DNA of 30,093 bases. Source: a virus. Below are positions 8,660 to 29,979 of this stretch, one piece after another; the first letter of the stretch is position 1; each line of letters opens with the position of its first letter. The stretch lies in the IMG/VR virus record IMGVR_UViG_3300039203_000048, positions 1 to 30,093 of that record; one strand, written 5' to 3'. Below the pieces are notes generated by a model. The model was not told the DNA's origin. It saw only the letters and a list, made by a program, of their open reading frames with translations, and did no database searches. A program made the position numbers and the translations under genes.

Positions 8660-8677
8660 GCCAGTCTCCTCTCAGAC

Positions 8678-8697
8678 GCGACAACGTGCGTTGTCGC
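8678..8697. promoter_or_regulatory. Perfect 20-bp operator-like palindrome (core AACGTGCGTT, 8683-8692)
   Basis: GCGACAACGTGCGTTGTCGC is a perfect dyad with 9-bp arms around TG. It occupies the 47-base gap between the endolysin stop and the ribosome site of the next minus-strand gene. It is the most symmetrical of the AACGNNCGTT copies at the arm level. Likely a protein-binding site; a short terminator hairpin is the alternative reading. Confidence 0.6.
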
Positions 8698-13108: not shown

Positions 13109-13118
13109 AACGCCCGTT
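13109..13118. promoter_or_regulatory. AACGCCCGTT palindrome upstream of scaffold gene
   Basis: Perfect AACGNNCGTT copy followed by AGTAG, 78 bases before the scaffold ATG and 37 bases from a second copy. The 13032-13193 gap contains this pair and no gene. Likely operator. Confidence 0.6.
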
Positions 13119-13145: not shown

Positions 13146-13155
13146 AACGGGCGTT
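13146..13155. promoter_or_regulatory. AACGGGCGTT palindrome, second of a pair
   Basis: Perfect copy with flank GCC before and AGTC after. It lies 37 bp (about 3.5 helical turns) from the copy at 13109, in the gap after the DUF6275-like gene. The pair could be bound together. Confidence 0.6.
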
Positions 13156-13460: not shown

Positions 13461-14646
13461 TTACTTCCCCTTTCACTTGTGGCTCCGATACGGAAGCCAG
13501 GATCTGGGCCACGACCAGCTCAGCCTCCGAAGTGGTCATGCCACCGAAGCAGGCGGCCTGGCGCTCTGCGAGCCGAGCCGCCTCTGGCATCTGCACCCGC
13601 ATCTCAGCGTTCGCCCAGCCCGGGCGCACCGGTGGCACGATGATGCCGGCGCCACCGAAGGTCGGATCCACGAAACGACGCGGCATCCCCTGCTTCATGT
13701 CATCGCAGCGGTTCGCGTACCCGCCGGCTTCCTGCTTCATGTAGTCCGGGTAGCTCAGGGTCTTGTCGCACACCAGGCAGGCGACCTCCTGAGAGACGCA
13801 TTCCATGCTGGCCCAGAGCTTGCCGTTCTCGCTGGCCCGCTGGATGACGTTGGCCTCCTGCGGGTAGATGTGGGACCAGATGGCGCCGAGCATGACGATG
13901 TGATTGCCAACGCCCGTTGCCGAGGCAGCCTCACGCTCGACGTGGACCATCTCGGAGCCAGCGATGGCGCCGATGATGTGCTTCTCCTCGTGCAGCCAGT
14001 TGATCGGCCCGTGAGTCACGGTCGGCTGGCCGAGCTCGAGGTCTGCGGTAGACCAGTAGGCAGAGTTGCGATTGGGCCGGTCAGCTTCGACGTAGCGGCC
14101 AGCGATCCACATGTAGTACGGGTTGTCACTGCGGGCCTTCTGCCACTGCGAGGCGATCTCCCGCGGCAGCTGGTCGTCATTGAAGCCCGTGGTCACCGGT
14201 GCCGCGAACACCAGCCGGTGGCCGATCTCGGCAACGAACGCGGCCTGAGGGTGCTCAGAGCTCAGCGTGGCCGCCAGACCTGAGCCATACAGCCCGGAGT
14301 TGCTGGACAGCGGCACCATGCCCGAAGGCAGGCCGAGAGCGTGGATACCGTTGGCCATGGTGCTCCCACACCGCTGGCAGGTGATCCCGGCCGTCAGCCC
14401 TGGGGCGCTGAGCATGAAGCCATGGGCCCGGGTGGGCAGGTTCGGTGTGGACTGGTCGGCCGCCCGAATCGGCATGGGCATCGAAGAGTGACCATGCAGG
14501 CCACCGCGAGTGGGCGTGATGTGAATCTGGTCGTTGGCGTCGCGCCCGCACATGGCACACGGCGGCAGTCCTGGCGGCCACACGAAGCCATGAGCCCGGT
14601 TCTGCATGGTCATGGCGGCCCGCTCCTTGCTCACTTCACTGCTCAC
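13453..14646 (-). CDS. Putative capsid maturation protease
   Basis: 397 residues. It follows the portal gene with a GTGA overlap and precedes the scaffold, the usual place of the head protease. The core contains NWLHEEKHIIGAIAGSEMV (His about 219) and, after a hydrophobic strand (VMLGAIWSHIYP), GKLWASMECVSQEVAC (Ser about 280). A His strand followed some 60 residues later by an 'S-M-E' Ser strand fits the S78/assemblin-like protease pattern seen in phages. CxxC pairs at 30-33, 90-93 and 290-293 suggest zinc knuckles, which is unusual for this family. It would trim scaffold and capsid subunits. A start at residue 12 (AAGGAG upstream) is an alternative to the GTG. A palindrome copy lies inside (13909). 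Confidence 0.62.
   Translation of the reverse strand: MSSEVSKERAAMTMQNRAHGFVWPPGLPPCAMCGRDANDQIHITPTRGGLHGHSSMPMPIRAADQSTPNLPTRAHGFMLSAPGLTAGITCQRCGSTMANGIHALGLPSGMVPLSSNSGLYGSGLAATLSSEHPQAAFVAEIGHRLVFAAPVTTGFNDDQLPREIASQWQKARSDNPYYMWIAGRYVEADRPNRNSAYWSTADLELGQPTVTHGPINWLHEEKHIIGAIAGSEMVHVEREAASATGVGNHIVMLGAIWSHIYPQEANVIQRASENGKLWASMECVSQEVACLVCDKTLSYPDYMKQEAGGYANRCDDMKQGMPRRFVDPTFGGAGIIVPPVRPGWANAEMRVQMPEAARLAERQAACFGGMTTSEAELVVAQILASVSEPQVKGEVND
13909..13918. promoter_or_regulatory. AACGCCCGTT palindrome inside protease gene
   Basis: Perfect core copy flanked by TGCC and GCCG within coding sequence, at the codons for ATGVG. An intragenic copy like this would fit a roadblock (stoperator) role rather than promoter control. 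Confidence 0.4.
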
Positions 14647-16331: not shown

Positions 16332-16777
16332 GCGCCTGTCCGGTTCAGGTCAAGATCCTGGCGCGACATGGCGATCCGGGACTGTGCGAAGCGGAATTGC
16401 CGGTCTATTTCCTCTATGACGGGAGTGACCTGCTGCGTCCGCAATTGCGTATATTGCCTGTCGTAACTCTCGAGGATGCGCAACTCGGTCCACATCTCCG
16501 TGAGCCGGGCGGAGTAAGCAGACGCCTCCCGAATCACCTCGTCCGGCTGCTTCTCATACCAGGTGCGAATAGCCGCCTTGATGCCGGCCAGCTCCAGGAG
16601 CACCTCGGCGTGGCTGCCAACGGACGTTGGCATGGGGCGAGCCCCATTCAGGAAGGCCTCTGGATGACTGGGGCGCAGTGGGGCCATGGAGTGAGCGAGC
16701 GCGGCCAGGAGTGCGGGGTCGGGAGCGCGTTGCGAAATGTAGCCATGCTCTTCAGATCCCTCGACAAGTGCCTTCAT
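16328..16777 (-). CDS. Small coiled-coil protein between terminase and portal
   Basis: 149 residues from ATG (MKALVEGSEEHGYISQ), 8 bases after AAGG and 28 bases past the terminase stop; the longer in-frame reading overlaps the terminase and is rejected. The C-terminal half is almost all helix (EVLLELAGIKAAIRTWYEKQPDEVIREASAYSARLTEMWTELRILESYDRQYTQLRTQQ), likely a coiled coil. It ends by overlapping the portal start (ATGA). It could be an accessory of packaging or head assembly; no motif supports one over the other. A palindrome copy lies within it (16619). Confidence 0.62.
   Translation of the reverse strand: MKALVEGSEEHGYISQRAPDPALLAALAHSMAPLRPSHPEAFLNGARPMPTSVGSHAEVLLELAGIKAAIRTWYEKQPDEVIREASAYSARLTEMWTELRILESYDRQYTQLRTQQVTPVIEEIDRQFRFAQSRIAMSRQDLDLNRTGA
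16619..16628. promoter_or_regulatory. AACGGACGTT palindrome inside coiled-coil gene
   Basis: TGCCAACGGACGTTGGCA is a perfect 18-bp dyad apart from the central GA. It lies at codons for the MPTSVGSH stretch. Intragenic copy. Confidence 0.45.
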
Positions 16778-16805: not shown

Positions 16806-18455
16806 TTATCCGACGAAGGCGTCCAGCACGGGCCCGCGGCGCTTCGGGGCCAGCGCGAGCTCGATAGCCTCAAGTTCCTTGCCCAGGATCATGACCTTCG
16901 CAGCATCCAGCGTGTGGAAGGACCCACCGCCGTAGCGCTTGCGCCGGCCACCGGAGCCGTTGGACTCCCGGCTGTAGACAACGACCTGGCCCTGAAATTC
17001 GGTCAGCAGCTCCTTGTCATACGGCAGCTCGACCTCCTGCGCATCGACGAACTCGCGCAGCTTGTCCGTAGCGAACTCGATGATGCTTTTCTCGATCACG
17101 GCATCCTCTGGCGTCTCCTTGCCCACCAGCGGCCGGTCGTCGAACTCGACGGCCTTCTTCTCGGAGAAGCCATACCCCTTGATCCGGTCACGGATCTTCG
17201 CGTGGGTTGGATCCTTGTCCATGTGCTGCCAGACCGGCAGGCCGTTGCCGCTCTTGTCCATCGACAAAGCCCGCAGGCGCAAGCCGTAGAAGTCGAACAC
17301 CTTGGCAATGACCTTCTCCTGGTCAACGGCACTGACGCGCATCAGGTGGATGCGAGCCAGCAGACGCAGCACGTCGACCTCCTCACCGCCTCGCTTCTGC
17401 CGGATGACCCCGAAGATCAGCAGCTCGGACGGGTCATTGGTGAAACCTAGGTCCATCCCAGCCCAGTACGAGGCATAGGCCTTGTGCAGGTGACTGGCCG
17501 GCAGATTGATGAGCGACTCGATAGGACGGCCCTCGAGCGACTCACCCTCGATCTTGATGCAGGAATAGACATTCTCGTTGTAGTCGGTGGCCCAGCTGGA
17601 CTCGTTGATGCGCACGCAGGCCATCAGGCGGGCCAGCACGAACACCTTGTCAGAGACGCTGCCAGCCTCGCCGTAGATGTTGCGCTTGTAGTCAGGATTG
17701 TCCCTGCTGCCGCCGTAGATGGAGATCTTCTGCTTGCGCTCCGCTGCCGACCATGTCGGGCGGTACATCGCTGGGTACTGATGGACGTGGAACGGCATGT
17801 CTGGATCGATCTCATCACCGGAGGTAATCCGGTGATAGGTGTCCCGAACGCCGTTGGAGACCCCGTGGGCCCGCCACTGGGCCCCAGGGATGCCATGCTT
17901 CATCGTCTCGATGAGCTCGATCCAGCCAGGCCCCGGGTAGTCCTGCGACTCCTCCTGCTCGAGCACCAGCGGGTGCTGACCTTTGACGCCGATCCCAGTC
18001 CGCTGCGGCAACCGACCCATGATCCGAGACCCGTTGACAAACGAGGCCTGGAACTGCGGCTGATGCCGGATACCCCCACCCTTGACATTGGGAAGCATCT
18101 CACGCAGGAGGCGGATCGCCTTGATCTTCTCCTCGACCTTATCCACGACGGGGCTGAGGTGGTTGAGCTCGGGAGCGGTGATGAGCATCTCCTGGCCAGG
18201 GAAGGCGAGCGGGAACGCGCAGGCTCGCATGATGATCCCCGCGCTCTTCCCGAGCGAGCGAGCCATCTTGTCCGCCTGGAAGGTCTCCTCGCACCAGTAG
18301 AGCGCGTATTGGAAGTCCCACAGTCGGTACCGGCGGTGCGAGCGGCCGGGGGTGTCATCGGTCCAGAACGCCTCCGCGAGGTCGATCCCGCTCGGGTCGT
18401 CCATCAGCGCAGCGAGATAGTGCTCTTCCTCGTCAAGAGCAAGGATCGCTGGCAT
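16806..18455 (-). CDS. Terminase large subunit
   Basis: 549 residues from ATG (MPAILALDEEEHYLAALM) with GGAAAGG close upstream; an in-frame start 10 codons earlier lies in operator sequence and lacks a site. The ATPase half has a Walker A-type loop MARSLGKSAG (about 64-73), a non-classical form with R-x-x-GKS, and a Walker B VLEQEESQ (about 164-171) with the catalytic Glu. The nuclease half has the RNase H-like acidic triad pattern: GMDLGFTND (D about 335), LSMDKSGNG (D about 400) and FHTLDAAKV near the end. It would pump DNA into the prohead through the portal encoded just downstream and cut the concatemer. No inserts or intein seen. Confidence 0.9.
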   Translation of the reverse strand: MPAILALDEEEHYLAALMDDPSGIDLAEAFWTDDTPGRSHRRYRLWDFQYALYWCEETFQADKMARSLGKSAGIIMRACAFPLAFPGQEMLITAPELNHLSPVVDKVEEKIKAIRLLREMLPNVKGGGIRHQPQFQASFVNGSRIMGRLPQRTGIGVKGQHPLVLEQEESQDYPGPGWIELIETMKHGIPGAQWRAHGVSNGVRDTYHRITSGDEIDPDMPFHVHQYPAMYRPTWSAAERKQKISIYGGSRDNPDYKRNIYGEAGSVSDKVFVLARLMACVRINESSWATDYNENVYSCIKIEGESLEGRPIESLINLPASHLHKAYASYWAGMDLGFTNDPSELLIFGVIRQKRGGEEVDVLRLLARIHLMRVSAVDQEKVIAKVFDFYGLRLRALSMDKSGNGLPVWQHMDKDPTHAKIRDRIKGYGFSEKKAVEFDDRPLVGKETPEDAVIEKSIIEFATDKLREFVDAQEVELPYDKELLTEFQGQVVVYSRESNGSGGRRKRYGGGSFHTLDAAKVMILGKELEAIELALAPKRRGPVLDAFVG

Positions 18456-18465
18456 GAGACCTTTC

Positions 18466-18495
18466 CAATGGACACGACGTAACAACGGGCGTTAG
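18466..18495. promoter_or_regulatory. Extended operator-like site upstream of terminase (core 18484-18493)
   Basis: Row reads GGACACGACGTAACAACGGG then CGTTAGTAG: the core AACGGGCGTT with one full outer arm (GACACGACGTAAC). It ends 11 bases before the terminase start codon, next to the ribosome site, so a bound protein could block its transcription or translation. Confidence 0.6.
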
Positions 18496-18507
18496 TAGAT
18501 GGAGGAT

Positions 18508-18699
18508 CTACCGAGGATGTGGCGCCCCACCCTCGCGGCCTGGCCAGTCATGGCAGTTGGGCTTGCCGCACCAGCAACCTGACCCACCAAGAGTGGGTAG
18601 ATCGGGTGCTGGCGTGCCCCACTTGCGATACCTGTTCTGCACCGCCATGGTGCGTGCCTTGGCCGCCGCCGCGTTGCGAGGTCGTGCGCGCCCGCTCAT
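18508..18699 (-). CDS. Small basic CxC...C zinc-knuckle-like protein
   Basis: 63 residues (MSGRARPRNAAAAKARTMAVQ). Start overlaps the upstream stop by TGATG. The N-terminus is strongly basic (R, K, A-rich), the C-terminus has GCWCGKPNCHDW, a compact Cys/His cluster that could bind zinc. It lies directly upstream of the terminase and its operator-like site. A nucleic-acid-binding role is plausible from charge and zinc cluster, but no family is recognised. Confidence 0.6.
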   Translation of the reverse strand: MSGRARPRNAAAAKARTMAVQNRYRKWGTPAPDLPTLGGSGCWCGKPNCHDWPGREGGAPHPR

Positions 18700-19013
18700 C
18701 AGCCGAAGTGCAGGACTGGACCGCCGACGTTGCCGCGGTTCGCCCGATCCTCATAGAGCTTGACCTCGGCCTCCATGGCGTCAGCTTGGGAGGTCACGTA
18801 CTCGTCCTCGGTGATGACGCCCTTCTCGACCAACAGCTTCACCAGAGCCCCATGGGAGACCAGTGCGGAGTTGACCCCGACCCGCAGATGCTTGGGAGTG
18901 GTGGCGTGAGGCTCTACCCCTCGAAGTAGGTCGTACTCCATCTCCCACTTCACCCCGGTCTGCATCGCGTGACAGGCGGCGTCGTACCTCTTCTGGTCTG
19001 ACTCTCTAGACAT
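18699..19013 (-). CDS. Hypothetical phage protein, KHLRVGVNSALV type
   Basis: 104 residues from ATG (MSRESDQKRYDAACHAMQTGV) with a good upstream AAGGAG. The stretch PKHLRVGVNSALVSHGALVKLLVEKGVITEDEYV, followed by MEAEVKLYEDR, has the look of a small conserved protein found near packaging genes of actinobacterial phages. The helical turn pattern resembles the product of a short helix-turn-helix plus dimer helix, but no clear DNA-binding motif can be read. Coupled to the gene downstream by TGATG. Function unknown. Confidence 0.7.
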   Translation of the reverse strand: MSRESDQKRYDAACHAMQTGVKWEMEYDLLRGVEPHATTPKHLRVGVNSALVSHGALVKLLVEKGVITEDEYVTSQADAMEAEVKLYEDRANRGNVGGPVLHFG

Positions 19014-19022
19014 TGTGCTCCT

Positions 19023-19586
19023 TCAGTGGGACAGGTTTCTCAGCATCGAGATCGACAGGTTCGGCTGGTTAGCGAACACCTCGGTGACCAGATCCTGCAC
19101 AACCAGCAGGCGCCACTCCACAAAGAACGCTGGATGCACTCCTCCGGCCTTGGCGATCGCCTCGAGGTCGTAGCGGGTCAGAGGAGCCTGGCGCCCCTTC
19201 AGGGTGCCTGCGCTGGACTGCACGAGGCGGCTCAAACTCCTGAAGTCGATGCCGCATTTCATCGCGAAGGCCCGCAGGCTCCTGGCGCCCTTGAGCTCAG
19301 CGAAGGCGAGGTGAAACGGCTGGGTGGAGAACCGCGGGGTGATGATCGACCACAGCTCGTCGAGGTTGCCATTGATGTGCGCCTTGCGCCGGCCGCCAGC
19401 AGGATTCGCCGTACCCGCCCGCTTGGCCTCCTCGGACTTGTAGACCCGGTACATGTCGCCCAGCATCTTCGTGAGGATGTCCGGGTTCTCCTCGTAGTGG
19501 TCCAGCCAGTCCTGGCTGCCATAGCGCTCCGGTGGGCACAGAGCGCTGGCCCGGGCCCAGTCCGCGTTCTTGCTAAAGGGGTCCAC
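19023..19586 (-). CDS. HTH-domain phage protein upstream of terminase
   Basis: 187 residues, starting at GTG (VDPFSKNADWARASALC) with GAGGG before it. The much longer in-frame reading upstream is rejected because it lies over the HNH gene in another frame. The C-terminal part reads SLRAFAMKCGIDFRSLSRLVQSS and LTRYDLEAIAKAGGVHPAFFVEWR, a Cro/C1-like HTH pattern (residues about 110-170). The N-terminal part has YGSQDWLDHYEENPDILTKMLGDMYRVY and a basic KAHINGNL stretch. It overlaps the HNH gene by 14 bases. Possibly a regulator or a small packaging protein; both need test. Confidence 0.6.
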   Translation of the reverse strand: MDPFSKNADWARASALCPPERYGSQDWLDHYEENPDILTKMLGDMYRVYKSEEAKRAGTANPAGGRRKAHINGNLDELWSIITPRFSTQPFHLAFAELKGARSLRAFAMKCGIDFRSLSRLVQSSAGTLKGRQAPLTRYDLEAIAKAGGVHPAFFVEWRLLVVQDLVTEVFANQPNLSISMLRNLSH

Positions 19587-20064
19587 CCCCCCGACGACCC
19601 TCGTGGCGCTCGCGTCGGCAAATCCGACAATCCCGGTTACCGTCCGGCCGCCAGTAGGTATTGGCCTCATCGAAAGGATGGCCCCACTTACAGTGGGGCT
19701 TGTCTTGATTCCACTGGCGACGCTTGGCGTCACGGTCGGCATTGTTCTGCTGCTGTGTGCCAGCAAACAGGTGCCCATCGGGGTAGCCCGGGGTCGGCTC
19801 GGTCTGGCAGCACGGTGGATTGTCGCAGTGGTGAAGGACATGGAGGCCGGGAGGAACAGGACCATTGACTAGTTCCCAGGCAAGGCGATGGGCGTAGACG
19901 AACTTGCCACCCTCATAACTGGTCTTCCCATACCCCTGTGGATTGGTCTCGCCGGTGAACTCACGACAGCCATTGAGACCATCAACGAGGCGCTCCTCAA
20001 GACGCTCCGCCGTAGTGCGGCCGGGCCGACGAGCGTAGCCGAGCACACCCCTCGAGGCTGTCAC
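19573..20064 (-). CDS. HNH homing-type endonuclease, second copy
   Basis: 164 residues from GTG at 20064, which overlaps the stop of the gene upstream (GTGA). The core GLHVLHHCDNPPCC is followed by HLFAGTQQQNNADRD, the HNH_3-type active site; the C-terminus has CKWGHPFDEANTY and CRICRRERH zinc ribbons. It shares the order of blocks with the copy at 1005-1487, including 'CREF/W', 'NGPVP', 'HHCDNPPCC' and 'C-x2-GHxFDxANTY', so the two are clear relatives. It cuts DNA near its own insertion site if typical. The end overlaps the next gene by 14 bases. Probably a selfish insert between two older genes. Confidence 0.87.
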   Translation of the reverse strand: MTASRGVLGYARRPGRTTAERLEERLVDGLNGCREFTGETNPQGYGKTSYEGGKFVYAHRLAWELVNGPVPPGLHVLHHCDNPPCCQTEPTPGYPDGHLFAGTQQQNNADRDAKRRQWNQDKPHCKWGHPFDEANTYWRPDGNRDCRICRRERHEGRRGGGPL

Positions 20065-20753
20065 TGGTCGGTCCAGTATTTTTGGGTTCCGGCTATGAAC
20101 GCCGTGTCGATCGCGTCGAACTCGGCGACCATGACGGTTCGGATCCACTCGAGGATCTCGTCCGCATTCTCGAAGCCGATCTTTCTGCGCTCGACCTCGT
20201 CGCTGCGGTCGTAGGCCCCGACGATCGCGAAGAGCTGCTTGCACAAGGTGATCCCGGTGGAGACCTGTTTCTCCCTGTGGACCCCGAATTCCTTGGCCCG
20301 CTGCTTGAGCTGGGTGATGTACGTGCCCACCGAGCTGTAGGCGTCCTTGTCGCGCTGCGACTTGGTCAATCCGAGGTCGTTCTTGATCACGGAGATCAGC
20401 GCCGAAGCTTCCTTCAAGCTCCGCCGCTGGGCCACCTCGGCGGAGTCGGAGAGCGGCAGCCCGTCGTAGTCCTGACCGGACCCGACAAAGGACGTAGCCC
20501 GATAGATCAGCAGCTCCAGGAAGAGCAGCCGGTCCAGGTCGAGCAGGTCGCTGGTGTTGGTGAACAGGTTCTGGGCCATGTAGGCCTTGCGCTGGCCTTC
20601 ATAGAAGTCACGCTCGGCATCACCGAGGACCTCGATGTACTGACCACTGGGCGTGGCCACCCGGTTGAGACTGATAACCACTGGCTGGTAGTTCGCCTGC
20701 ATCGCCGCGGGAATGACGGAGGTGGATGCAGGGATGGCGAGAGGGGCAGGCAC
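20061..20753 (-). CDS. Putative terminase small subunit
   Basis: 230 residues, starting at GTG (VPAPLAIPASTS) 8 bases after GGGAG; an earlier in-frame start runs across the iteron cluster and is rejected. Centre: DLLDLDRLLFLELLIYRATSFVGSGQDYDGLPLS, then LKEASALISVIKNDLGLTKSQRDK, a pattern I associate with small terminase-like proteins of actinobacterial phages. The C-terminal third (ADEILEWIRTVMVAEFDAIDTAF) is helical. Four short direct repeats stand directly upstream, as would suit a DNA-recognition protein that marks the packaging site. It lies some 1.6 kb before TerL. Alternative: an unrelated DNA-binding protein. Confidence is limited. Confidence 0.48.
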   Translation of the reverse strand: MPAPLAIPASTSVIPAAMQANYQPVVISLNRVATPSGQYIEVLGDAERDFYEGQRKAYMAQNLFTNTSDLLDLDRLLFLELLIYRATSFVGSGQDYDGLPLSDSAEVAQRRSLKEASALISVIKNDLGLTKSQRDKDAYSSVGTYITQLKQRAKEFGVHREKQVSTGITLCKQLFAIVGAYDRSDEVERRKIGFENADEILEWIRTVMVAEFDAIDTAFIAGTQKYWTDQ

Positions 20754-20782
20754 GTCACGGGCTCCCAATGTCAAAGGACAGG

Positions 20783-20815
20783 GATGCGTAGATGCGTGAG
20801 ATGCGTGAGCTGCGT
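20783..20815. repeat. Four 7-bp iterons upstream of the putative small terminase gene
   Basis: GATGCGT at 20783-20789, 20791-20797 and 20800-20806, then GCTGCGT at 20809-20815, with 1-2 base spacers (starts 8-9 bp apart). On the coding strand they read ACGCATC. They fill most of the 20754-20823 gap, between the VRR-NUC stop and the small terminase start. Confidence 0.7.
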
Positions 20816-20823
20816 TAGACCAC

Positions 20824-21246
20824 TTAGGGTCGCGGCCCTGAGTATTGCACGGATGTCGCCACATCGGCGACGGTAACACTGGATGATTTGGTGCCAACGC
20901 CCGTTACTACGCCGCCTTTCAGCTCGGCGAGAATCTGGCCCGATAAGAGGTCGGCCGGGCGCCACACCCCGGCATCCACGCCTGCATCGGCCAGGGCGGC
21001 CAGCCACGCTTTCTGCTCAGGAGTGACCCGGCCAAGCCGGCCAGACTGGCGCTTCAGCTCGCGCACCAGGAATCGGCCATGACCCACGATCGCCACATCT
21101 GGCCAGCCGCCCTCGCTTCGACGGCTGTCATGGGTGTGGTAGACGAGGTAGCCCAGTGTCACCGCCATCTCCCGCACCGACGCCAAGAGATCCTTCTCGG
21201 GCATGGCCGCGGCGCACGCGGCTTGATACTCGCTCTGGGTGACCAT
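20824..21246 (-). CDS. VRR-NUC domain nuclease
   Basis: 140 residues (MVTQSEYQAACAAAMPEKDLLASVREMAVTLGYLVYH). The domain has the PD-(D/E)XK-like order of VRR-NUC proteins: GGWPDVAIV with Asp about 50, LVRELKRQSG with Glu 63 and Lys 65, PEQKAWLAAL with Gln 78, and VWRPAD at the end. It would cut DNA, probably at Holliday or flap structures. Length (about 140) is normal for stand-alone phage versions. Start lacks a strong ribosome site. Codons near its end contain one AACGNNCGTT copy. It lies in an operon of small DNA-related genes. Confidence 0.85.
   Translation of the reverse strand: MVTQSEYQAACAAAMPEKDLLASVREMAVTLGYLVYHTHDSRRSEGGWPDVAIVGHGRFLVRELKRQSGRLGRVTPEQKAWLAALADAGVDAGVWRPADLLSGQILAELKGGVVTGVGTKSSSVTVADVATSVQYSGPRP
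20896..20905. promoter_or_regulatory. AACGCCCGTT palindrome inside VRR-NUC gene
   Basis: Perfect core, flanked by GTGCC and ACTACG, close to the 3' end of the gene and some 150 bases upstream of the small terminase start. Confidence 0.45.
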
Positions 21247-21267
21247 CCACAGCGGGTCGGCAACAGA

Positions 21268-21969
21268 TTAGAGGATCTGCGTCAGCAGGGTCTCGACGGC
21301 GTCGATCTCGCCCTCGGCCCGGGTCATCTGCTGGCGCACCTTGCGGCGCCACTCGAGCAGGTTGCGGTAGCCGGCGATGAACACCGCCAGCTGCTCCGAG
21401 CTCGGCTCGTTGTCAGGACCGAACGCCGCCATGGACACCGCCAGAGACTTCGCGGCCGTGGTCAGCCGGCCGAAGTCGGTGATGTCCTTGGTCCGTGCAG
21501 GAACCGCGTCAAATGCCACTTCGTCCTCCTGGAAGTACTGCTTAGTGGCGGCGACCCGCAGGGCCTTACCGTCCAGATATTGCGTCGTGACGACGTCCAG
21601 CGGGTAGCCGCCGACATCACCCTTGCGCTCCTTCGTGCGGCCCATGCGAACCCGCATCACGACCTGGCCGCCCGCGGGCGCTGACGCCTCCACCGTGATA
21701 ACACTGGACCTGGATATCGAGGGGGACGATGTCGACTGTGGCGAGACCTTCCTGCCCGAGGCGTTGCGCCCAGCCAGTGGACCACTCTCGGGAGGCATCC
21801 AGGGCACGTCGACAAGCCCCGGGGTTGCGATCGATGGAAGGGTCACCGCCGCCAGCATCTGGGGCTCAGCGAAGCCCGGCGCCAGCTTCTCCATGTTGGT
21901 GATCCGCTGGCGACCACCAGACTTCTGACCTGACCACTCGGCCGAGTGCGAGACGACCGTCTTCATCAT
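21268..21969 (-). CDS. Hypothetical protein, downstream of LexA-like HTH
   Basis: 233 residues, starting at ATGATGAAG with the first ATG (21969) overlapping the preceding stop (ATGA). The first third is Pro/Ser/Gly-rich and disordered (ATPGLVDVPWMPPESGPLAGRN). The middle has VVMRVRMGRTKERKGDVGGYPLDVVTTQYLDGKAL and the last third is helical (SLAVSMAAFG to MTRAEGEIDAVETLLTQIL). No catalytic motif or Cys cluster is seen. It might be a single-strand-DNA or recombination accessory, given the nearby nuclease, but this is only context. Confidence 0.6.
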   Translation of the reverse strand: MMKTVVSHSAEWSGQKSGGRQRITNMEKLAPGFAEPQMLAAVTLPSIATPGLVDVPWMPPESGPLAGRNASGRKVSPQSTSSPSISRSSVITVEASAPAGGQVVMRVRMGRTKERKGDVGGYPLDVVTTQYLDGKALRVAATKQYFQEDEVAFDAVPARTKDITDFGRLTTAAKSLAVSMAAFGPDNEPSSEQLAVFIAGYRNLLEWRRKVRQQMTRAEGEIDAVETLLTQIL

Positions 21970-22196
21970 CGGCCGAGCAGTTTCAGCGAGCGGGCCATGT
22001 GGCCGTCCACGTAGTCGACGCGGCCCTCGTCGCGCAGCATCTCTAGGTGCCACACCACTGCGGTCCTGGCCATCCCCAGGCCGGCGGAGATCTCAGCGAT
22101 GGTGGGCAGGTAGTGCTGGGTGTCCCTGAACGCCCGCATGTAGAGCATCAGGGCGTTCCGCTGCTTGTCCCCGTGGGTCGTGGTGACTCCGGTCAT
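21966..22196 (-). CDS. LexA-like winged-helix DNA-binding protein
   Basis: 76 residues (MTGVTTTHGDKQRNALMLYMRAFR). The sequence YLPTIAEISAGLGMARTAVVWHLEMLRDEGRVDYVDGHMARSLKLL closely follows the N-terminal winged helix of LexA, including the recognition-helix start 'T-I-A-E-I-x-x-G-L-G' and the wing 'G-R-V'. It lacks any peptidase domain, so it could bind DNA as a regulator but not self-cleave. It overlaps both neighbours by ATGA. It is a candidate for a local repressor; there is no evidence that it binds the AACGNNCGTT sites. Confidence 0.8.
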   Translation of the reverse strand: MTGVTTTHGDKQRNALMLYMRAFRDTQHYLPTIAEISAGLGMARTAVVWHLEMLRDEGRVDYVDGHMARSLKLLGR

Positions 22197-22375
22197 AATC
22201 CAACCTCCTGGGCGGTGATCGACATGTCGTCAGTGATGACCGTGACCTCCCCGGCGTCCGAGATGCTGACCATGAACACGTGCTCAGTCCCGTCGTCGGC
22301 GACGAACTTCGCAGCCTTGGACTCGCCTGGAGCGAGCTCGACCGGCTCGATGTTCTGGTACGTCTTCCCGCTCAT
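22193..22375 (-). CDS. Small acidic hypothetical protein
   Basis: 60 residues (MSGKTYQNIEPVELAPGESKAAKFVADDG), linked to both neighbours by ATGA overlaps. Acidic, with strands 'TEHVFMVSISDAGEVTVITDD'. No Cys or membrane segment. Possibly a small inhibitor or modifier; the family is not recognised. Real because of its exact overlaps and high third-position G+C. Confidence 0.65.
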   Translation of the reverse strand: MSGKTYQNIEPVELAPGESKAAKFVADDGTEHVFMVSISDAGEVTVITDDMSITAQEVGL

Positions 22376-22620
22376 GAGACCTCCACCGGGATCTCGCCAC
22401 CGGTCGCCGGCAGGACGCTGAACGTCTCACCCTCACGCACGGCAGTCCAGGAGGTGAAGTGATACAGCACGGTGCCGTCAACGCGGGTCGCAGCACAGAC
22501 AGTGCCAACGATGCCGGTCAGGCCAACAAGAGGGGGTGGACCCTCCCACAGCACCTCGCCTGCTGGCCCGCGAAGCTGCACCACGGCTGGGACCTCTGAC
22601 ATGTACGGGCCGACCAACAT
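22372..22620 (-). CDS. Small hypothetical protein, first gene of the LexA-like operon
   Basis: 82 residues from ATG (MLVGPYMSEVPAVVQLRGPAGE) behind GAGGAGACACC. Beta-rich with a Pro-Gly pattern and no Cys cluster apart from one Cys (TVCAATRV). The upstream region carries a degenerate half-site (GACAACGTCC, about 13-22 bases before the ATG) and two full palindromes at 22709 and 22749, so it opens the operon controlled from there. Function not recognised. Confidence 0.62.
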   Translation of the reverse strand: MLVGPYMSEVPAVVQLRGPAGEVLWEGPPPLVGLTGIVGTVCAATRVDGTVLYHFTSWTAVREGETFSVLPATGGEIPVEVS

Positions 22621-22708
22621 GGTGTCTCCTCGTGGACGTTGTCGATATGACAAGGCTACCGCTGAGACCTCCACTGGCGCAACCAGATTCGGCCAGGATC
22701 TCGCTGCC

Positions 22709-22718
22709 AACGCGCGTT
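22709..22718. promoter_or_regulatory. AACGCGCGTT palindrome, second copy upstream of LexA-like operon
   Basis: Perfect core flanked by TGCC and AGAACG. About 90 bases before the 22620 start and 40 bp from the copy at 22749. Confidence 0.6.
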
Positions 22719-22736
22719 AGAACGGGTCCTACGCCG

Positions 22737-22765
22737 ACACGACGTAACAACGCACGTTGTCGCCA
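22737..22765. promoter_or_regulatory. Extended operator-like site (core AACGCACGTT, 22749-22758)
   Basis: Reads GACACGACGTAACAACG up to the core, then CACGTTGTCGCC: one full outer arm and one short arm. It lies 40 bp from the 22709 copy, in the gene-free 22621-22986 gap, near a plus-strand promoter-like pair at 22795. Confidence 0.6.
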
Positions 22766-22794
22766 AAGCCGTTGAGATTGTTGAGGATTGGGCC

Positions 22795-22825
22795 TTGACA
22801 GGCTCGACCCGCGCGGTTCTACAAT
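22795..22825 (+). promoter_or_regulatory. Sigma70-like promoter on the plus strand
   Basis: TTGACA (22795-22800) and TACAAT (22820-22825) with a 19-base spacer, both near consensus but with a longer gap than the usual 17. It points away from the LexA-like operon toward a hairpin at 22940. No start codon with a good ribosome site follows within 120 bases. Confidence 0.4.
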
Positions 22826-22831
22826 CAAGAC

Positions 22832-22976
22832 CCTGCTTCCTGCTTCCCGCCCTGCATCACCTCAGAAGTTGGCCAGAACGTTTTTCCACCGGACTCTCGC
22901 ATAACTTATCGCGCGTGCGCGCGCGAGGCCTCTGACAGCACGAAGCCCGCCTCCAGGGAAGTGAGGCGGGCTTCGT
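22832..22976 (+). ncRNA. Candidate small plus-strand RNA
   Basis: If the promoter at 22795 is used, a transcript would run about 145 bases and end at the perfect 14-bp hairpin at 22940-22976. The interval has no sizeable frame on that strand. The hairpin may instead serve only the minus-strand gene. Tentative. Confidence 0.2.
22940..22976 (-). terminator. Hairpin terminator downstream of the Cys-cluster gene at 22987
   Basis: ACGAAGCCCGCCTC (22940-22953) pairs perfectly with GAGGCGGGCTTCGT (22963-22976), loop 9. Ends 10 bases beyond the 22987 stop. No T-run on either side. An alternating purine-pyrimidine tract (22910-22925) lies beside it. Confidence 0.75.
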
Positions 22977-22986
22977 TACGTACGGC

Positions 22987-23307
22987 TCAGGCTGGAGGGA
23001 CCGCTGACTCAGGAGCAGGAGTAGCCAGGTCCTCCACCAGCGAGGCCCGCTTCTCATCAGCCGTACCCGTCTTCGGCAGGCCTGCGTCGTCCAATGCTGC
23101 CGCCAAAGCGTCGCCCTTGAGCTCATTGGCAGCCGCCTGTTGAGCCTGCAGCTGTGTGGGGGCCGCAGCGGGCCAGCAGACCGGGCAGGCGCCCGGGGAG
23201 GTCGAGCCGTATGCCGAGGTCACTGCGGGGACCAGGCCGCCGCAGATCGGGCACTCCAGCTCGGACTTCTCAGAGCCGGTCTCACGGGGAAGGGACAGGT
23301 CAGCCAT
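22987..23307 (-). CDS. Zinc-ribbon protein with a SAP-like C-terminal module
   Basis: 106 residues (MADLSLPRETGSEKSELECPICGG), with C-x2-C and a later C-x2-C (ELECPICGG, then ACPVCWP) giving a zinc ribbon of four Cys. The C-terminal part ELKGDALAAALDDAGLPKTG, TADEKRASLVE resembles a SAP/Rho-N-like helix-extended-helix DNA-binding motif. The same module occurs in the gene at 24383, with about 80% matching DNA. A short run of small genes links the two. Likely a nucleic-acid or particle-associated protein. ATG behind AGGAGA. Confidence 0.68.
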   Translation of the reverse strand: MADLSLPRETGSEKSELECPICGGLVPAVTSAYGSTSPGACPVCWPAAAPTQLQAQQAAANELKGDALAAALDDAGLPKTGTADEKRASLVEDLATPAPESAVPPA

Positions 23308-23315
23308 GATTTCTC

Positions 23316-23558
23316 CTAGGCGATGTAGCGGACGTCGGTGGAGGCTGCGTCAGAGATGAGGAACAGCTCTCCGACATTGTTTGGGCTGGAGACGACCAGG
23401 TTGGCAGCGGCCGCGATCTTCACGCCAGTCGCGGTGGTCACCGCGGGGTTGCCATCGACATAGACATTTCCGGTGCCCAGGTTCTGGATCAACACCGAGT
23501 CACTCCCCTCCGGCACTGGGATCAGCACTGGCGTCACCGTGCCCACAGTGAGCTTCAT
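23316..23558 (-). CDS. Small beta-rich hypothetical protein
   Basis: 80 residues from ATG (MKLTVGTVTPVLIPVPEGSD), starting at an ATGA overlap with the small membrane gene upstream. The strand pattern SDSVLIQNLGTGNVYVDGNPAVTTATGVKIAAAANLVVSS resembles a single small beta-barrel or jelly-roll fibre or decoration domain. No membrane segment or Cys. A longer in-frame reading upstream overlaps coding sequence of two other genes and is rejected. Role probably in the particle; unproved. Confidence 0.6.
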   Translation of the reverse strand: MKLTVGTVTPVLIPVPEGSDSVLIQNLGTGNVYVDGNPAVTTATGVKIAAAANLVVSSPNNVGELFLISDAASTDVRYIA

Positions 23559-23725
23559 CTGGTTCCAATCGTGACGTGCCCTGCCGAGAGCACCAGGGTC
23601 AGGGTCAGGATGGCCAGACCCAGTGCGATGAAACTGACGCTGGCCTTCGGGCCGGCGAAGGCCCTGACTGGCACGGCGATGATGAAGCAGATCAGGGCCA
23701 AGATAGCCAGGATCAAGGTGATCAT
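23555..23725 (-). CDS. Small two-segment membrane protein, holin-like candidate
   Basis: 56 residues from ATG (MITLILAILALICFIIAVPVR), overlapping the previous stop (ATGA) and the next start (ATGA). There are two clear hydrophobic segments, about residues 3-20 and 31-47, joined by a short loop with RAFAGPKAS, and an end of VTIGTR. This 'two-segment, short loop, under 60 residues' form fits small holins or phage inner-membrane peptides. It is 14 kb from the endolysin gene, so it may not work in lysis. It is too short for many gene finders, but the overlaps and codon use support it. Confidence 0.62.
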   Translation of the reverse strand: MITLILAILALICFIIAVPVRAFAGPKASVSFIALGLAILTLTLVLSAGHVTIGTR

Positions 23726-24258
23726 GAGCCGGCTCCATGGGTGGTGCGAGCGGCGCGCGGGACGGCACGTCCGGTGGTGTCTGCGCTCGGCAGGGTGGCT
23801 GTGGTGCCGGCAGTGCCGGTGTCGATGTAGCTGGTCACCGCGCCCAGGGTGGCCACGAGCTTGTTCTCGGTGTTCGTGACCGTGCCGCGGTAGATCTTGT
23901 AGCCAACGGCGTTCGTGAGTGCGACCCAGGACATCGCGATGGTGCCGTTGAGGGCGATGGCGTTGGTGATCTCGTTGGACACCGGGCTCTCGCCGCCACC
24001 AGCATCGACTGCTGTGATCTTCCAGAAGTACGTGGCCGCGGCGAAGGTGCCGCCAGTGGTCAGGACGGTGCCCTTGGTCAGCACCGGCGCCACAACAGTG
24101 ACCCCCCTGCGTCCGGCGAACTTGACGCCCTTCTGAGGGAAGGCTGCCGGATCGAAGCGCTGGGCCAGCGTGCCGTCAGCCAGAGTAGCTGGGGAGATCG
24201 TGACGTCCCCGAAGGTCAGAGAAGCGGCCTGCGAGTAGGTGGTCCTGGTCAGAGCCAT
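23722..24258 (-). CDS. Virion-type protein with an Ig/fibronectin-like domain
   Basis: 178 residues from ATG (MALTRTTYSQAASLTFGDVTIS) behind AGGAAGG; longer readings upstream lack a site. Residues about 70-155 read FAAATYFWKITAVDAGGGESPVSNEITNAI, then TIAMSWVALTNAVGYKIYRGT and VTSYIDTG, the fold signature of fibronectin type III domains: an aromatic W, the 'Y-x-W-K-I-T-A-V-D', and 'V-G-Y-K-I-Y-R'. Such domains often sit on the outside of phage particles and help bind cell-surface sugars. It is followed by a small membrane gene. A palindrome lies 59 bases upstream. Confidence 0.72.
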   Translation of the reverse strand: MALTRTTYSQAASLTFGDVTISPATLADGTLAQRFDPAAFPQKGVKFAGRRGVTVVAPVLTKGTVLTTGGTFAAATYFWKITAVDAGGGESPVSNEITNAIALNGTIAMSWVALTNAVGYKIYRGTVTNTENKLVATLGAVTSYIDTGTAGTTATLPSADTTGRAVPRAARTTHGAGS

Positions 24259-24316
24259 GTGGGAACCTTCCTTTCGCTTGGATCCATCGGCTCGAGTGCC
24301 CCTGATCAAAGATGCC

Positions 24317-24326
24317 AACGGGCGTT
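24317..24326. promoter_or_regulatory. AACGGGCGTT palindrome upstream of the Ig-domain gene
   Basis: Perfect core followed by GTTAGACACGACAG, a partial outer arm. It lies in the 24259-24382 gap, between the terminator of the upstream gene and the Ig-domain gene, 59 bases before its ATG. Confidence 0.6.
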
Positions 24327-24335
24327 GTTAGACAC

Positions 24336-24369
24336 GACAGTGCCTCAGGGGTTTCCCTGAGGCACTGTC
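24336..24369 (-). terminator. Strong hairpin terminator (15-bp perfect stem)
   Basis: GACAGTGCCTCAGGG (24336-24350) pairs perfectly with CCCTGAGGCACTGTC (24355-24369), loop GTTT. It lies 13 bases beyond the stop of the 24383 gene. It would end transcripts coming from the right, with the following block restarted downstream of the palindrome. Confidence 0.85.
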
Positions 24370-24382
24370 TATTCCATTCAGC

Positions 24383-24697
24383 TCAGCTGATGTGGTGGAC
24401 GTTCTCCGGGCTGTAGGCCGTGTGCTCGAAACCCTCGGGCGGGTTGTAGGCCGGCGCACCCATGGCCAGGCCCGGGTTGGCGAACTCCTCGGAGACGTCA
24501 CCAGGGTCCGGCTCGCCAGCCAGTGAGGCTCGCTTCTCGTCGGCCGTGCCGGTCTTCGGCAGTCCTGCGTCATCCAGCGCCTGAGCCAGAGCCTCGCCCT
24601 TGAGCTCGGACGGTGGCGTCTCGGGTGTGGGGATGAGCTCTCCAGCCGCGTCGCGGGGTTGCGGCTCGGGCTCGACGCTCAGCTTGGTGTCACTCAT
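24383..24697 (-). CDS. Acidic protein with a SAP-like module (paralogous with 22987-23307)
   Basis: 104 residues from ATG (MSDTKLSVEPEPQPRDAAGELIP), 9 bases after AAGGAG; an in-frame start 19 codons upstream has no site. The N-terminal part is Pro/Glu-rich and disordered. The motif ELKGEALAQALDDAGLPKTG, TADEKRASLAG matches the module of the gene 1.4 kb further along, with nearly the same residues, but no zinc ribbon is present here. The C-terminus ends in FEHTAYSPENVHHIS. It is the first minus-strand gene next to the divergent control region at 24763, so it may be under its control. Confidence 0.65.
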   Translation of the reverse strand: MSDTKLSVEPEPQPRDAAGELIPTPETPPSELKGEALAQALDDAGLPKTGTADEKRASLAGEPDPGDVSEEFANPGLAMGAPAYNPPEGFEHTAYSPENVHHIS

Positions 24698-24751
24698 TGG
24701 GGCCACTCCTTCGTTCAAGCGTGTCGGGACTTTAGCCATATCGACCGCGGA

Positions 24752-24783
24752 CACGACGTACTAACGCACGTTGTTACGTCGTG
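24752..24783. promoter_or_regulatory. 32-bp near-perfect operator-like palindrome at a divergent promoter region (core 24763-24772)
   Basis: Left arm CACGACGTACTAACG and right arm CGTTGTTACGTCGTG are reverse complements with two mismatches around CA. It lies between the start of the acidic gene (minus, 24697) and that of the excisionase-like gene (plus, 24851), about 55-70 bases from each. It is the most complete copy of the extended site. The 24698-24850 gap holds nothing else I can name with confidence. Confidence 0.7.
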
Positions 24784-24850
24784 TTGATCCACCTCGAGCG
24801 TCACCGACGCCGATTGATTAGATCTGATCCCACTTGGTCGAGACCCAGCC

Positions 24851-25153
24851 ATGATCACCTTCTACTCCGCCCACGAGGCCGCCAAGATGACCGGCATGAG
24901 CGTCGACTGGATCTGGAAACAGTGCCGCGACGGCAAGATCGCCCATCACAAGCTCGGCTCCAAGTACCGATTCACCGACGCCGACCTCAGTGCCCTGGCC
25001 GCGGAGTCCGCGGTAGCGCCCAAACAGCAGGATGACCTCGTACCTACGCGAGGTGGCATCACCAAGCAGACAGAGGTGATGCTCGAGGCACGGCGAGAAG
25101 TCATGGAGCAGGGACTGAAACGGACCTTCCATGGCAACTCGGTGACGGGATGA
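24851..25153 (+). CDS. Excisionase-like helix-turn-helix protein
   Basis: 100 residues from ATG (MITFYSAHEAAKMTGMSVDWIWK). The N-terminal half has the AlpA/MerR-like winged-helix order of many phage excisionases: 'SAHEAAKMTGMSVDWIWKQC', then 'GKIAHHKLGSKYRFTDADL'. The C-terminal half is helical and charged (EVMLEARREVMEQGLKRTF). It is the first gene of a plus-strand operon facing the tyrosine integrase, which fits control of excision. It starts 79 bases from the core of a large palindrome. It could instead be a plain DNA-binding regulator. Confidence 0.66.
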   Translation: MITFYSAHEAAKMTGMSVDWIWKQCRDGKIAHHKLGSKYRFTDADLSALAAESAVAPKQQDDLVPTRGGITKQTEVMLEARREVMEQGLKRTFHGNSVTG

Positions 25154-25397: not shown

Positions 25398-25608
25398 GCC
25401 ATCGGCCAATGCAGCATCCATCCTGCTCGATCTGCTCGGTGCCGAGACCTTTGCCGACGAAGCCGTCGCCTACGTCCAGAACCACATGAGCGCTCCACTG
25501 ACCAGCGACCAGAGACTCCTGATCAAGCTCGGGGCCGTCAAGGGCGCCCAGCTCGTGGCCGACGAGGTTCGCCAGTTTGCGCAGCGACCATCGCCGGAGC
25601 GAGTATGA
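25390..25608 (+). CDS. Small hypothetical protein
   Basis: 72 residues from ATG (MSEPSANAASILLDLLGAETFAD), overlapping the end of the frame-disrupted gene by 8 bases and the next start by ATGA. It is helical with LTSDQRLLIKLGAVKGAQLVADEVRQFAQRP. No Cys, membrane or known motif. It lies in the plus-strand excisionase operon, so it may be involved in early or lysogenic control. Longer readings from 25150 use the wrong frame. Confidence 0.6.
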   Translation: MSEPSANAASILLDLLGAETFADEAVAYVQNHMSAPLTSDQRLLIKLGAVKGAQLVADEVRQFAQRPSPERV

Positions 25609-25961
25609 CCATCGCCGCGCTGCGGCGCATCCAGGACGAGGCCGAGCTCACCACGGCGCAGCTCCTCGAGAACGTCGAACTTCTGCTCTCCAGCTGCACG
25701 CCGGCTGTCATCGCACAGCGGCTGGGCATGGAGATGGAGGCGATCGAGAAACGCTGCTGCCGGGCCGGTCGCCTGAAGCTGGCCGCGCCATTCAACAACG
25801 CGGTCCAGATGGAGCGGCGTCTAGACGCCAGCGTCGCCGAGCAGGCCCACCAGGGCCACGTTGACCTCTGGGAGCAGGTGACCATACAGGTCGCTGGTGA
25901 TCGCAGCGCTGGCGTGCCCCAGGCGCCGGGAGACGGCCAGAACTGGCTGGCCGCCGGATAG
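25605..25961 (+). CDS. HTH-like protein whose end overlaps the integrase gene
   Basis: 118 residues from ATG (MTIAALRRIQDEAELTTAQLLE), ATGA overlap with the upstream gene. Residues 30-62 (LSSCTPAVIAQRLGMEMEAIEKRCCRAGRL) look like a helix-turn-helix of the sigma-region-4 or WhiB-adjacent kind. The last 47 codons are antisense to the integrase C-terminus, as genes meet tail to tail with a 141-base overlap. The overlap part (AEQAHQGHVDLWEQ onward) is probably dispensable. No terminator separates the two genes, so converging transcription may matter. Confidence 0.6.
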   Translation: MTIAALRRIQDEAELTTAQLLENVELLLSSCTPAVIAQRLGMEMEAIEKRCCRAGRLKLAAPFNNAVQMERRLDASVAEQAHQGHVDLWEQVTIQVAGDRSAGVPQAPGDGQNWLAAG

Positions 25962-26927
25962 CAGGACGGCGGCATGTGAGTGCCTCAGGTCATGCACTCG
26001 AGGATGCTTGCCGAAGCCCGCGGCTTCTGCCTTCTTGCGGGCCGGGTCCCAGACCCCGTTGTAGAAGGTCCCGCTGGAGATCCGGTGGCCGGCCTTGTTG
26101 GCGAACACTAGATCACCCGCCACCTTGCCGTAGGTCTGCGATGCCAGGAGGTTGTTCATCCTGGCAGTCAGCGTCACCGTGCGACGGCTCCTCACGCTCT
26201 TGGGATCCAGCGAGAGAGGCTTGCCTCCAGGTTGACGCTTCCAGGCCGTCACCACGAAGAGCCGCTCACCGGGTAGGTCGATGTGCTGCGTCTGCAGGGC
26301 GGTCGCCTCACTCCAACGTAGGCCGGTCCCGAACAGGAATGTCACCAACGGCCGGTAGTGCTCGCTGACGAACCCCAGGAAGGCGGCAAACTCCGCCGGC
26401 GTCAGAAACACCATCTCCTCATGCCTGACCGGGACGCTCTTGGATCGACCCTGGAACGGGTTGAGGGTCAGCAGCCCGTCGGTCTGCGCGTCCTTCATCA
26501 CGGACGAGACCATGCCGTGGATGTTGTGGATCGTCTTGGGTTTCAGAGTGCTCGCCAGCTCGACCAACCACTTACCGACGTCCTCGCGGGTGATCGTCTC
26601 GATGGGCTTGTCTGCCAGCCAAGCCGGCACGTGGCCAGCAAAGTCCCGACGGTAGTCCGAGCGGGTCCGGATATTGGCCCCGGGCCGCGAGTCGATGGCG
26701 CGGTCGAACCACTGCGCCAGGGTAGGGCGCGCTAGGGCGGGCGCAAAGCCACGGCCGGGCACCCAGCCGTGGGGGTATCGCTGGCCAGCTGCATCCACCA
26801 GGCCGCGGAACTTGATGGCCCCAGACTCGGTCGGGAAGGTCTCCGAGACGCTCCTGCCATCCTGCCGCCAGCGCACCTGCCACCGGGGGGCTCCGGTCTT
26901 GATCACAGTCTTTCTCAGGCTCGCCAC
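25821..26927 (-). CDS. int: Tyrosine-family site-specific integrase
   Basis: 368 residues from GTG (VASLRKTVIKTGAPRWQVRW in the first 20) behind GGAAGG. Residues 10-60 form an arm-binding domain; about 65-150 a SAM-like core-binding domain (TLAQWFDRAIDS ... TIHNIHGMVSSVMKDA); the catalytic domain has Arg204 (GTGLRWSEATAL), Lys243 (DPKSVRSRRTV, likely), His312-x-x-Arg315 (HDLRHSH), His338 (RLGHAS) and Tyr348 (SDLYGHLL). All catalytic residues are present, so it looks active. Length is typical (350-400). It lies about 650 bases from a tRNA-end att site that it would use, and converges on the plus-strand operon. Confidence 0.93.
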   Translation of the reverse strand: MASLRKTVIKTGAPRWQVRWRQDGRSVSETFPTESGAIKFRGLVDAAGQRYPHGWVPGRGFAPALARPTLAQWFDRAIDSRPGANIRTRSDYRRDFAGHVPAWLADKPIETITREDVGKWLVELASTLKPKTIHNIHGMVSSVMKDAQTDGLLTLNPFQGRSKSVPVRHEEMVFLTPAEFAAFLGFVSEHYRPLVTFLFGTGLRWSEATALQTQHIDLPGERLFVVTAWKRQPGGKPLSLDPKSVRSRRTVTLTARMNNLLASQTYGKVAGDLVFANKAGHRISSGTFYNGVWDPARKKAEAAGFGKHPRVHDLRHSHAAVLLSGGQPVLAVSRRLGHASAAITSDLYGHLLPEVNVALVGLLGDAGV

Positions 26928-27738: not shown

Positions 27739-27748
27739 AACGTGCGTT
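27739..27748. promoter_or_regulatory. AACGTGCGTT palindrome at end of gene 27750
   Basis: Perfect core with one long outer arm (GTTGTTACGTCCTGTCC on the plus strand). It sits against the TAA of the 80-residue gene, between the right-hand small-gene block and the attP-like locus. Confidence 0.6.
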
Positions 27749-27749
27749 G

Positions 27750-27992
27750 TTACGTCCTGTCCGTCGATTTTGCAGCACCCACCTGGACAATATCTGTCCA
27801 GCACTGGACAGATATTGTCTTCGCGTGCTGCCGCTCGAGAGGTCCCATCCTCGCCCAGCGTTCCTCGAGCTGCTCGTCGATGCGCTCACTGAAGCGCTTG
27901 ACGCTTGGCAGGTCGGGGGCATTCACTGCGCGGGTCAACATCTCGATCAAGCCGGCGAGTGCTACGTCCACGGCGGCGATGGTGCTGGTCAT
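27750..27992 (-). CDS. Small helical protein, last gene before attP
   Basis: 80 residues from ATG (MTSTIAAVDVALAGLIEMLTRA), overlapping the stop of the upstream membrane gene (TGATG). One long helical pattern (SVKRFSERIDEQLEERWARMGPLERQHAKT) suggests a dimer. The C-terminal codons hold the twin dyad at 27785-27820. No known motif. If the dyad is an operator, this gene could be autoregulated, but this is only a guess. Confidence 0.58.
   Translation of the reverse strand: MTSTIAAVDVALAGLIEMLTRAVNAPDLPSVKRFSERIDEQLEERWARMGPLERQHAKTISVQCWTDIVQVGAAKSTDRT
27785..27820. promoter_or_regulatory. Twin GGACA-N5-TGTCC dyad forming a 34-bp perfect inverted repeat
   Basis: GGACAATATCTGTCC (27785-27799) and GGACAGATATTGTCT (27806-27820) are two dyads with starts 21 bp apart, so on the same face of the helix. 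Together 27786-27819 forms a perfect inverted repeat with 16-bp arms around CA. It lies within the 3' part of the 27750 gene. Confidence 0.65.
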
Positions 27993-29969: not shown

Positions 29970-29979
29970 AACGCTCGTT
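29970..29979. promoter_or_regulatory. AACGCTCGTT palindrome near right edge
   Basis: Perfect core flanked by TGAC and AGCAG. A one-mismatch copy (AACGCCCATT, 29996-30005) follows 26 bp on. They are in the gene-free right end, where early or immunity promoters might lie beyond the edge. Confidence 0.55.

Follow-up and report, generated by a model that had tools for sequence, protein, structure and literature searches.

The Gram-positive SOS box, CGAAC-N4-GTTCG, is bound by LexA. Phage regulators made up of a LexA DNA-binding domain only are known in isolated cases, among them gp6 of GIL01: this truncated LexA homologue acts from a palindrome, GaCACAn-nTGTGaC, at -43.5 of a single promoter, the phage late promoter P3, which it activates (PMC6182141). 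In the Cluster A mycobacteriophage L5, Rep binds asymmetric 13-mer stoperators as a monomer with two DNA-binding domains (PMC9283540), and the start-associated sequence (SAS) of Cluster K, also an asymmetric 13-mer, is linked to translation starts, with an upstream 17-bp inverted repeat added in the extended form (ESAS; PMC3203893). Here we describe a set of palindromic sites in IMG/VR virus record IMGVR_UViG_3300039203_000048, of which we analyzed a stretch of 30,093 bp with 64% GC, referred to as the window. The sites share the core palindrome AACGNNCGTT, and a minority carry an additional asymmetric arm. We consider it reasonably likely that the cores form the operator network of a regulator encoded by the phage itself, most probably a stand-alone LexA-type protein of 76 amino acids, and that the extended sites are promoter/operator modules with a second partner.

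By analogy, GIL01 gp6 and L5 Rep with its stoperators would be the closest functional precedents. As with gp6, the phage encodes a LexA DNA-binding domain that lacks the protease part, the site is palindromic, and there is a link to the control of late genes. Unlike the sites of gp6, an activator at one promoter, AACGNNCGTT occurs up to 55 times per contig; a sequence link to GIL01 was not found, and none was looked for. What recalls the L5 stoperators is the presence of at least 20 genome-wide sites at promoters and in intergenic gaps, where direction matters, whereas the sites described here are 18-mers and palindromic, their candidate binder is of the LexA type, and only a minority have direction. 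SAS and ESAS likewise offer short repeats near start codons, a subset that is extended, and an extension consensus that differs between subclusters, but in the present system the dyad itself is the basic unit, with the extension placed between it and the gene; the parallel is formal and not one of relatedness. The Gram-positive SOS box and LexA share with this system the AAC-N4-GTT spacing and the LexA-family fold; the outer CG is absent in the window, and the candidate binder has no self-cleaving domain. While LexA-domain-only phage regulators have been isolated cases, here one family tracks a genome-wide network of candidate operators across an uncultivated clade.

Core sites and their distribution

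The palindrome AACGNNCGTT occurs 16 times in the window without mismatch, the number given in an earlier reading of the sequence alone, against 0.22 expected under a first-order Markov model, an approximately 70-fold excess. With one mismatch allowed there are 26 sites, compared to 7.3 in shuffled sequence, and no shuffle reached 26. Ten of the 16 cores are noncoding, though only about 12% of the window lies outside gene calls (binomial p ~2e-6); outside recognized families these calls come from a simple gene finder and could be inaccurate in places. To place the sites in context, we searched IMG/VR with the terminase large subunit (TerL; 6 loci) and the major capsid protein (19 loci) and read the full contigs. 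The resulting clade is a little-known one of uncultivated soil phages with major capsid proteins down to ~60% identical. The nearest GenBank phage, GX15bay (TerL 39% and capsid 42% identical), is without the motif, and two prophage scans of GTDB genomes, which used TerL and the capsid protein as queries, turned up no relative. Of all gapped palindromes, AACG-N2-CGTT shows the strongest enrichment in the window and in the relatives G007, G009, G010, G012, G019, G021, G022, and G024.

Half-site logos built from all sites of 20 records show that the ordinary site is an 18-bp dyad, TRNYAACGNNCGTTRNYA. Information reaches +9 from the dyad center, as R-N-Y-A after CGTT, with almost none further out, and A at +9 is found in ~60-72% of half-sites in most close genomes, all sites counted. 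Because the information extends to +9, the first bases of the arm, GTTA or AGTA (RNYA), are part of every operator; the sequence-only reading had taken these four bases to be special to extended sites, a view the logos overturn.

Counts per contig reach 55 in 70 kb (G009), 43 in 86 kb (G021), and 46 in 53 kb (G024), so that with 16 in the window and 43-55 in larger relatives we see a many-copy network of a single site over the genome, at promoters and between genes. An asymmetric site oriented with transcription, as in stoperators, is not what we observe: the core is palindromic, and direction comes only from the arm of a minority, not always with transcription. Five capsid or TerL relatives are poor in sites, namely G005 (3 in 93 kb), G013 (4 in 135 kb), G015 (1 in 138 kb), G018 (0 in 136 kb), and G020 (0 in 18 kb). 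Locus L144 of G015, a capsid relative without AACGNNCGTT sites, has 175 copies of CCGG-N5-CCGG in 21 kb against 3.8 expected, which could be either a repeat within coding sequence or an operator of another type.

The unextended cores of the window, none with a strand assignment, occupy varied positions. Exact matches to AACGCTCGTT lie at 789..798, inside predicted gene 730-918, and at 29970..29979, and exact matches to AACGGACGTT at 3553..3562 and 4324..4333, both inside an open reading frame of 957 amino acids. This reading frame (3400-6273) contains 60-nt coding repeats and possibly encodes a tail fibre-like protein. Further intragenic cores are found at 13909..13918 and at 16619..16628, the latter kept in G002, G006, and G007, while the core at 20896..20905 is kept in G003. 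Two cores 37 bp apart, at 13109..13118 and 13146..13155, form a pair that recurs in G001, G002, G004, and G007, and a second pair, 40 bp apart, consists of 22709..22718, upstream of the operon with the LexA-type gene, and the extended site at 22749. In both cases the pairing is kept in relatives and the intervening sequence changes, which suggests that the pairs could serve cooperative or looped binding. An RNA hairpin was rejected for the 13109/13146 pair, as G002 has lost the complementarity of the centers.

One-sided extensions and their variable tails

A minority of sites have a true extension, CGTC-NN-GTYC, which runs outward from +10 in rigid phase and spans 9-12 bp. The sequence-only reading had placed outer arms directly against the cores at 18484, 22749, 24763, and 27739, and all four are borne out, with 0-2 mismatches to GACACGACGTAAC / GTTACGTCGTGTC: none at 18484 left (arm 18471-18483, minus strand) or 22749 left (22736-22748, minus), two at 24763 left (24750-24762, minus), and one each at 24763 right (24773-24785, plus) and 27739 right (27749-27761, plus). 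A weak form at 8683 left, CGTTGTCGCGTC, had been missed. The core at 24317..24326, which had been credited with a partial arm, is an ordinary site: it has GTTA without CGTC, and its GACACGAC is oppositely oriented and borders a terminator-like hairpin.

CGTC stands at +10..+13 on 6 of the 32 half-sites of the window, against 0.25 expected. As a 13-mer on its own, searched with up to 3 mismatches, the arm is not above chance (12 in the window against 8.4 expected). Good copies away from a core, or at any other spacing, were not found in the window, and the arm pattern read backwards gave none there. We take the arm to be real because all its good copies keep one exact distance to a core and the backwards control is empty.

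Only 24763 has two arms, and it is symmetric at 13 of 16 base-pair positions, the 3 mismatches including the non-palindromic center; a long dyad had been reported at 24752-24783, and a near-complete one does exist there. The other armed sites tested for long symmetry match at 7-10 of 16 positions. A class of 36-38 bp dyads, previously proposed as the complete form, therefore falls away. The division into two classes survives in another shape: every site is an 18-bp dyad, to which a one-sided extension is added in a minority, in place of a divide between 10-20 and 36-38 bp.

The extended site before TerL spans 18470..18493 (minus), with its core at 18484-18493, the left arm GACACGACGTAAC, and the TerL start codon next to it. 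The site at 22736..22758 (minus) combines core 22749-22758 with a left arm and is the second member of the 40-bp pair. The doubly extended site, the only near-complete 36-bp dyad, lies at 24750..24785 (no strand assigned) in a divergent region, with its core at 24763-24772. The weakly extended core at 8675..8692 (minus) is in the leader of gene 8078-8659, 15 nt before the start codon, and its CGTC is kept in G002 and G004. The site at 27739..27761 (plus) has the right arm GTTACGTCCTGTC and no gene start downstream that way. Just beyond this arm, at 27786-27820, is a strong inverted repeat, GGACAATATCTGTCC-AGCACT-GGACAGATATTGTC, each arm of which is near-palindromic; this could be a terminator or else an operator of another kind.

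Most arms face a start codon 15-120 nt away, and in six phages the arm in the TerL leader stops ~20 nt short of the ATG. All arm-bearing cores of the window are in predicted noncoding DNA, as had been claimed for the extended class in general; in relatives the rule breaks down, with G024 31518, G024 34703, and G004 2903 inside predicted genes. CGTC at +10 is present on 5/30 half-sites in G002, 5/30 in G004, 4/92 in G024, and 2/16 in G007, compared to 0 to 2 of 32-110 in G006, G009, G019, and G021. The check that had been proposed, conservation of the arms in related phages, thus gives a divided answer: arms are kept in close relatives, as in the six TerL leaders, and are absent in the four distant phages, where the core is fully kept. 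Judging from these contigs, the extension is confined to near relatives and the core operator is clade-wide.

We aligned 25 half-sites selected for a [TC]ACGTC-like extension, a selection that itself fixes the core-NNYA-CGTC spacing. Beyond CGTC the tails differ by lineage: GTGTCC in the window, G001, G003, and G004; TGGTTC in G002 and G024; and CASTAG in G007, on both of its arms. In the divergent region, the flanks of the window and G002 are ~90% identical while at least half of the six tail bases are different (GTGTCC to TGGTTC). TerL and the rightmost site show the same replacement, as does the comparison of G004 11322 with G024 51138, where the neighboring genes are 80-87% identical. Change of the tail at several loci with steady flanks suggests a trans-acting factor whose specificity differs by lineage, though homogenization by recombination may also lie behind the concerted change. 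The sequence-only reading had offered a tetramer or two proteins as the binder of extended sites. Two proteins would fit better, given that the extension is usually one-sided and asymmetric and that its tail varies independently of the core.

Tentatively, we go a step further and propose that the extended sites are composite operators, in which a LexA-type dimer site is joined, at constant phase, to a site for a second factor that the phage encodes; the specificity of this factor would have switched between lineages, with the arms rewritten genome-wide in concert and the core held constant. The arm tails provide natural pairs at the same locus with switched specificity. Such pairs could identify the partner and could show how control networks change specificity while keeping the operator backbone. 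A screen for arm-binding genes present in G002 and G024 and missing from the window returned a single small protein (44% over 50 aa), which matched no DNA-binding family and is an unconvincing candidate.

The candidate binder and competing explanations

The proposed core binder is a stand-alone LexA-type winged-helix protein of 76 amino acids, encoded at 21966..22196 (minus) and recognized by Pfam profile and by fold. It scores 25.3 bits against PF01726 (LexA_DNA_bind), with a cut-off of 23.7, and its AlphaFold2 model has a mean predicted local distance difference test score (pLDDT) of 79. The top Foldseek matches in the PDB are the E. coli LexA-DNA complexes 3jso and 3jsp, T. maritima LexA 3k2z, and the LexA domain 1lea. 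The protein ends after the winged helix, where the self-cleaving domain of LexA would start, and so is not a full LexA with a C-terminal S24 domain. LexA_DNA_bind is above cut-off in 12 of the 20 records, the proteins being 75-80 aa long. Among these related phages, the gene is present in 12/15 site-rich records and 0/5 site-poor ones. The exceptions among the former are G023 and G024, contigs without a TerL match, the neighborhood in which the gene resides, and G014, which has a weak homologue. The position of the gene near TerL is constant across the clade. In the window it lies downstream of the 22709/22749 pair and would therefore be self-controlled.

AAC-N4-GTT is the half-site spacing of the SOS box. 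The outer CG that would complete the SOS form (CGTTCG) is on 0/32 half-sites of the window, and we rejected host LexA as the binder of these sites for its absence. CGTTCG half-sites number 11/34 in G022 against 4.3 expected and 25/86 in G021 against 10.8 expected. This difference between G021/G022 and the window agrees with a LexA-type family having moved away from host boxes. With regulators and operators available as a matched set, drift from SOS-type to phage-private boxes is directly testable.

In the mechanism we propose, the LexA-type protein would bind TRNYAACGNNCGTTRNYA as a dimer and control the phage's own transcription. With the outer bases altered, host LexA should not compete for the operators, and since the protein has no protease domain, no direct SOS response would be expected. 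Sites at promoters would control initiation, and those between or within genes would be elongation roadblocks or silencers in the manner of stoperators. At TerL, a gp6-like -43.5 geometry would place the start site inside the gene, which would favor repression or a roadblock there. At extended sites, a second sequence-specific partner, either a phage factor or a phage-tuned RNA polymerase contact, would touch the asymmetric TACGTCNNGTYC arm and give the site its direction, mostly toward the start codon of the first gene of an operon.

Several observations weigh against this model. The split in gene presence (chance ~0.004) comes from phages that are related to one another and so lack phylogenetic independence. 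Phage Cosmo encodes a LexA-like protein without AACGNNCGTT enrichment, so that we discarded a LexA-like fold as a sufficient predictor of the site. In G002, the divergent site keeps a right arm that has not switched to TGGTTC. The arms at 27739, G004 11322, and G024 51138 face no gene start, a search near the arms gave no sigma-70-type promoter, and the TerL arm lies so close to its start codon that a -35 role is excluded there.

The arm may instead be a promoter in itself, start-proximal or -10-like (TACGTC), with the core a plain operator overlapping its upstream part and no second protein involved. We regard this as somewhat unlikely, although the orientation of most arms toward a nearby start codon, and the ~20-nt gap between CGTC and ATG at TerL, are what it would produce. 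The 25 aligned sites have no -35-like column upstream, no sigma-70 match was found, several arms have no gene ahead, and host RNA polymerase would not cause a concerted, lineage-specific change of tail. As a sigma-70 -35 or -10 element specifically, the arm was rejected, with no promoter match near extended sites and no conserved upstream hexamer. It was also rejected as a second degenerate LexA-type dyad, for poor half-site fit and a spacing of 1 or 3 versus 2.

The LexA-type gene could also be a mere neighbor, and the cores bound by another protein, such as the excisionase-like helix-turn-helix (HTH) protein encoded at 24851, the 25605 protein, an unrecognized repressor, or a TetR-like protein. 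The Xis-like gene is in the divergent region, adjoining the doubly extended site, and the Thermus regulator TTHA0973 has been assigned a near-identical sequence, CNAACGNNCGTTNG (PMC6651687); that paper, one of two in which AACGNNCGTT is printed, does not concern phages, and a published name for the motif did not emerge. We consider another binder unlikely, since the Xis-like and 25605 genes went undetected in most site-rich relatives, where the LexA-type gene was detected. Less probable still is that the sites serve DNA organization, packaging, or replication in place of transcription: the many intragenic sites and the genome-wide spread, as with the 55 in 70 kb, would suit such a role, but the noncoding enrichment of the cores and the retention of their positions at operon heads and in leaders speak for transcription. 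Chance or a base-composition artefact, to which only the loose search for the arm lends anything, is already refuted for the cores, and for the arms in the window lineage, by the excess of cores and by good arms that are found nowhere but next to cores, keep a single spacing, and reappear in relatives.

Neighboring genes and local features

TerL is encoded at 16806..18455 (minus) and was identified by a PHROG terminase match. The excisionase-like HTH gene (24851..25153, plus; PHROG excisionase match) is downstream of the right arm of 24763. A small HTH-like protein of 118 amino acids (25605..25961, plus), with a weak PHROG DNA-binding match (E=0.037), is a weak candidate for the arm-binding factor. 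The tyrosine integrase gene (25821..26927, minus; PHROG integrase E=7.6e-61) adjoins a sequence resembling a tRNA 3' end, GCCGGGAGCGGGACTTGAACCCGC, at 27580-27610, which is probably the attP core.

On the plus strand at 22795-22830 is TTGACA-N19-TACAAT, with no gene downstream that way; its TTGACA end is also present in G001, and the stretch is a possible conserved noncoding region or antisense promoter. A duplicated stretch, LDDAGLPKTGTADEKRASL, at 23037-23124 and 24520-24607, is common to two genes and resembles an HeH/SAP-type motif. HNH or endonuclease VII-like genes at 1005-1487, 9718-10773, and 19573-20046 differ in position among relatives and are likely homing endonucleases.

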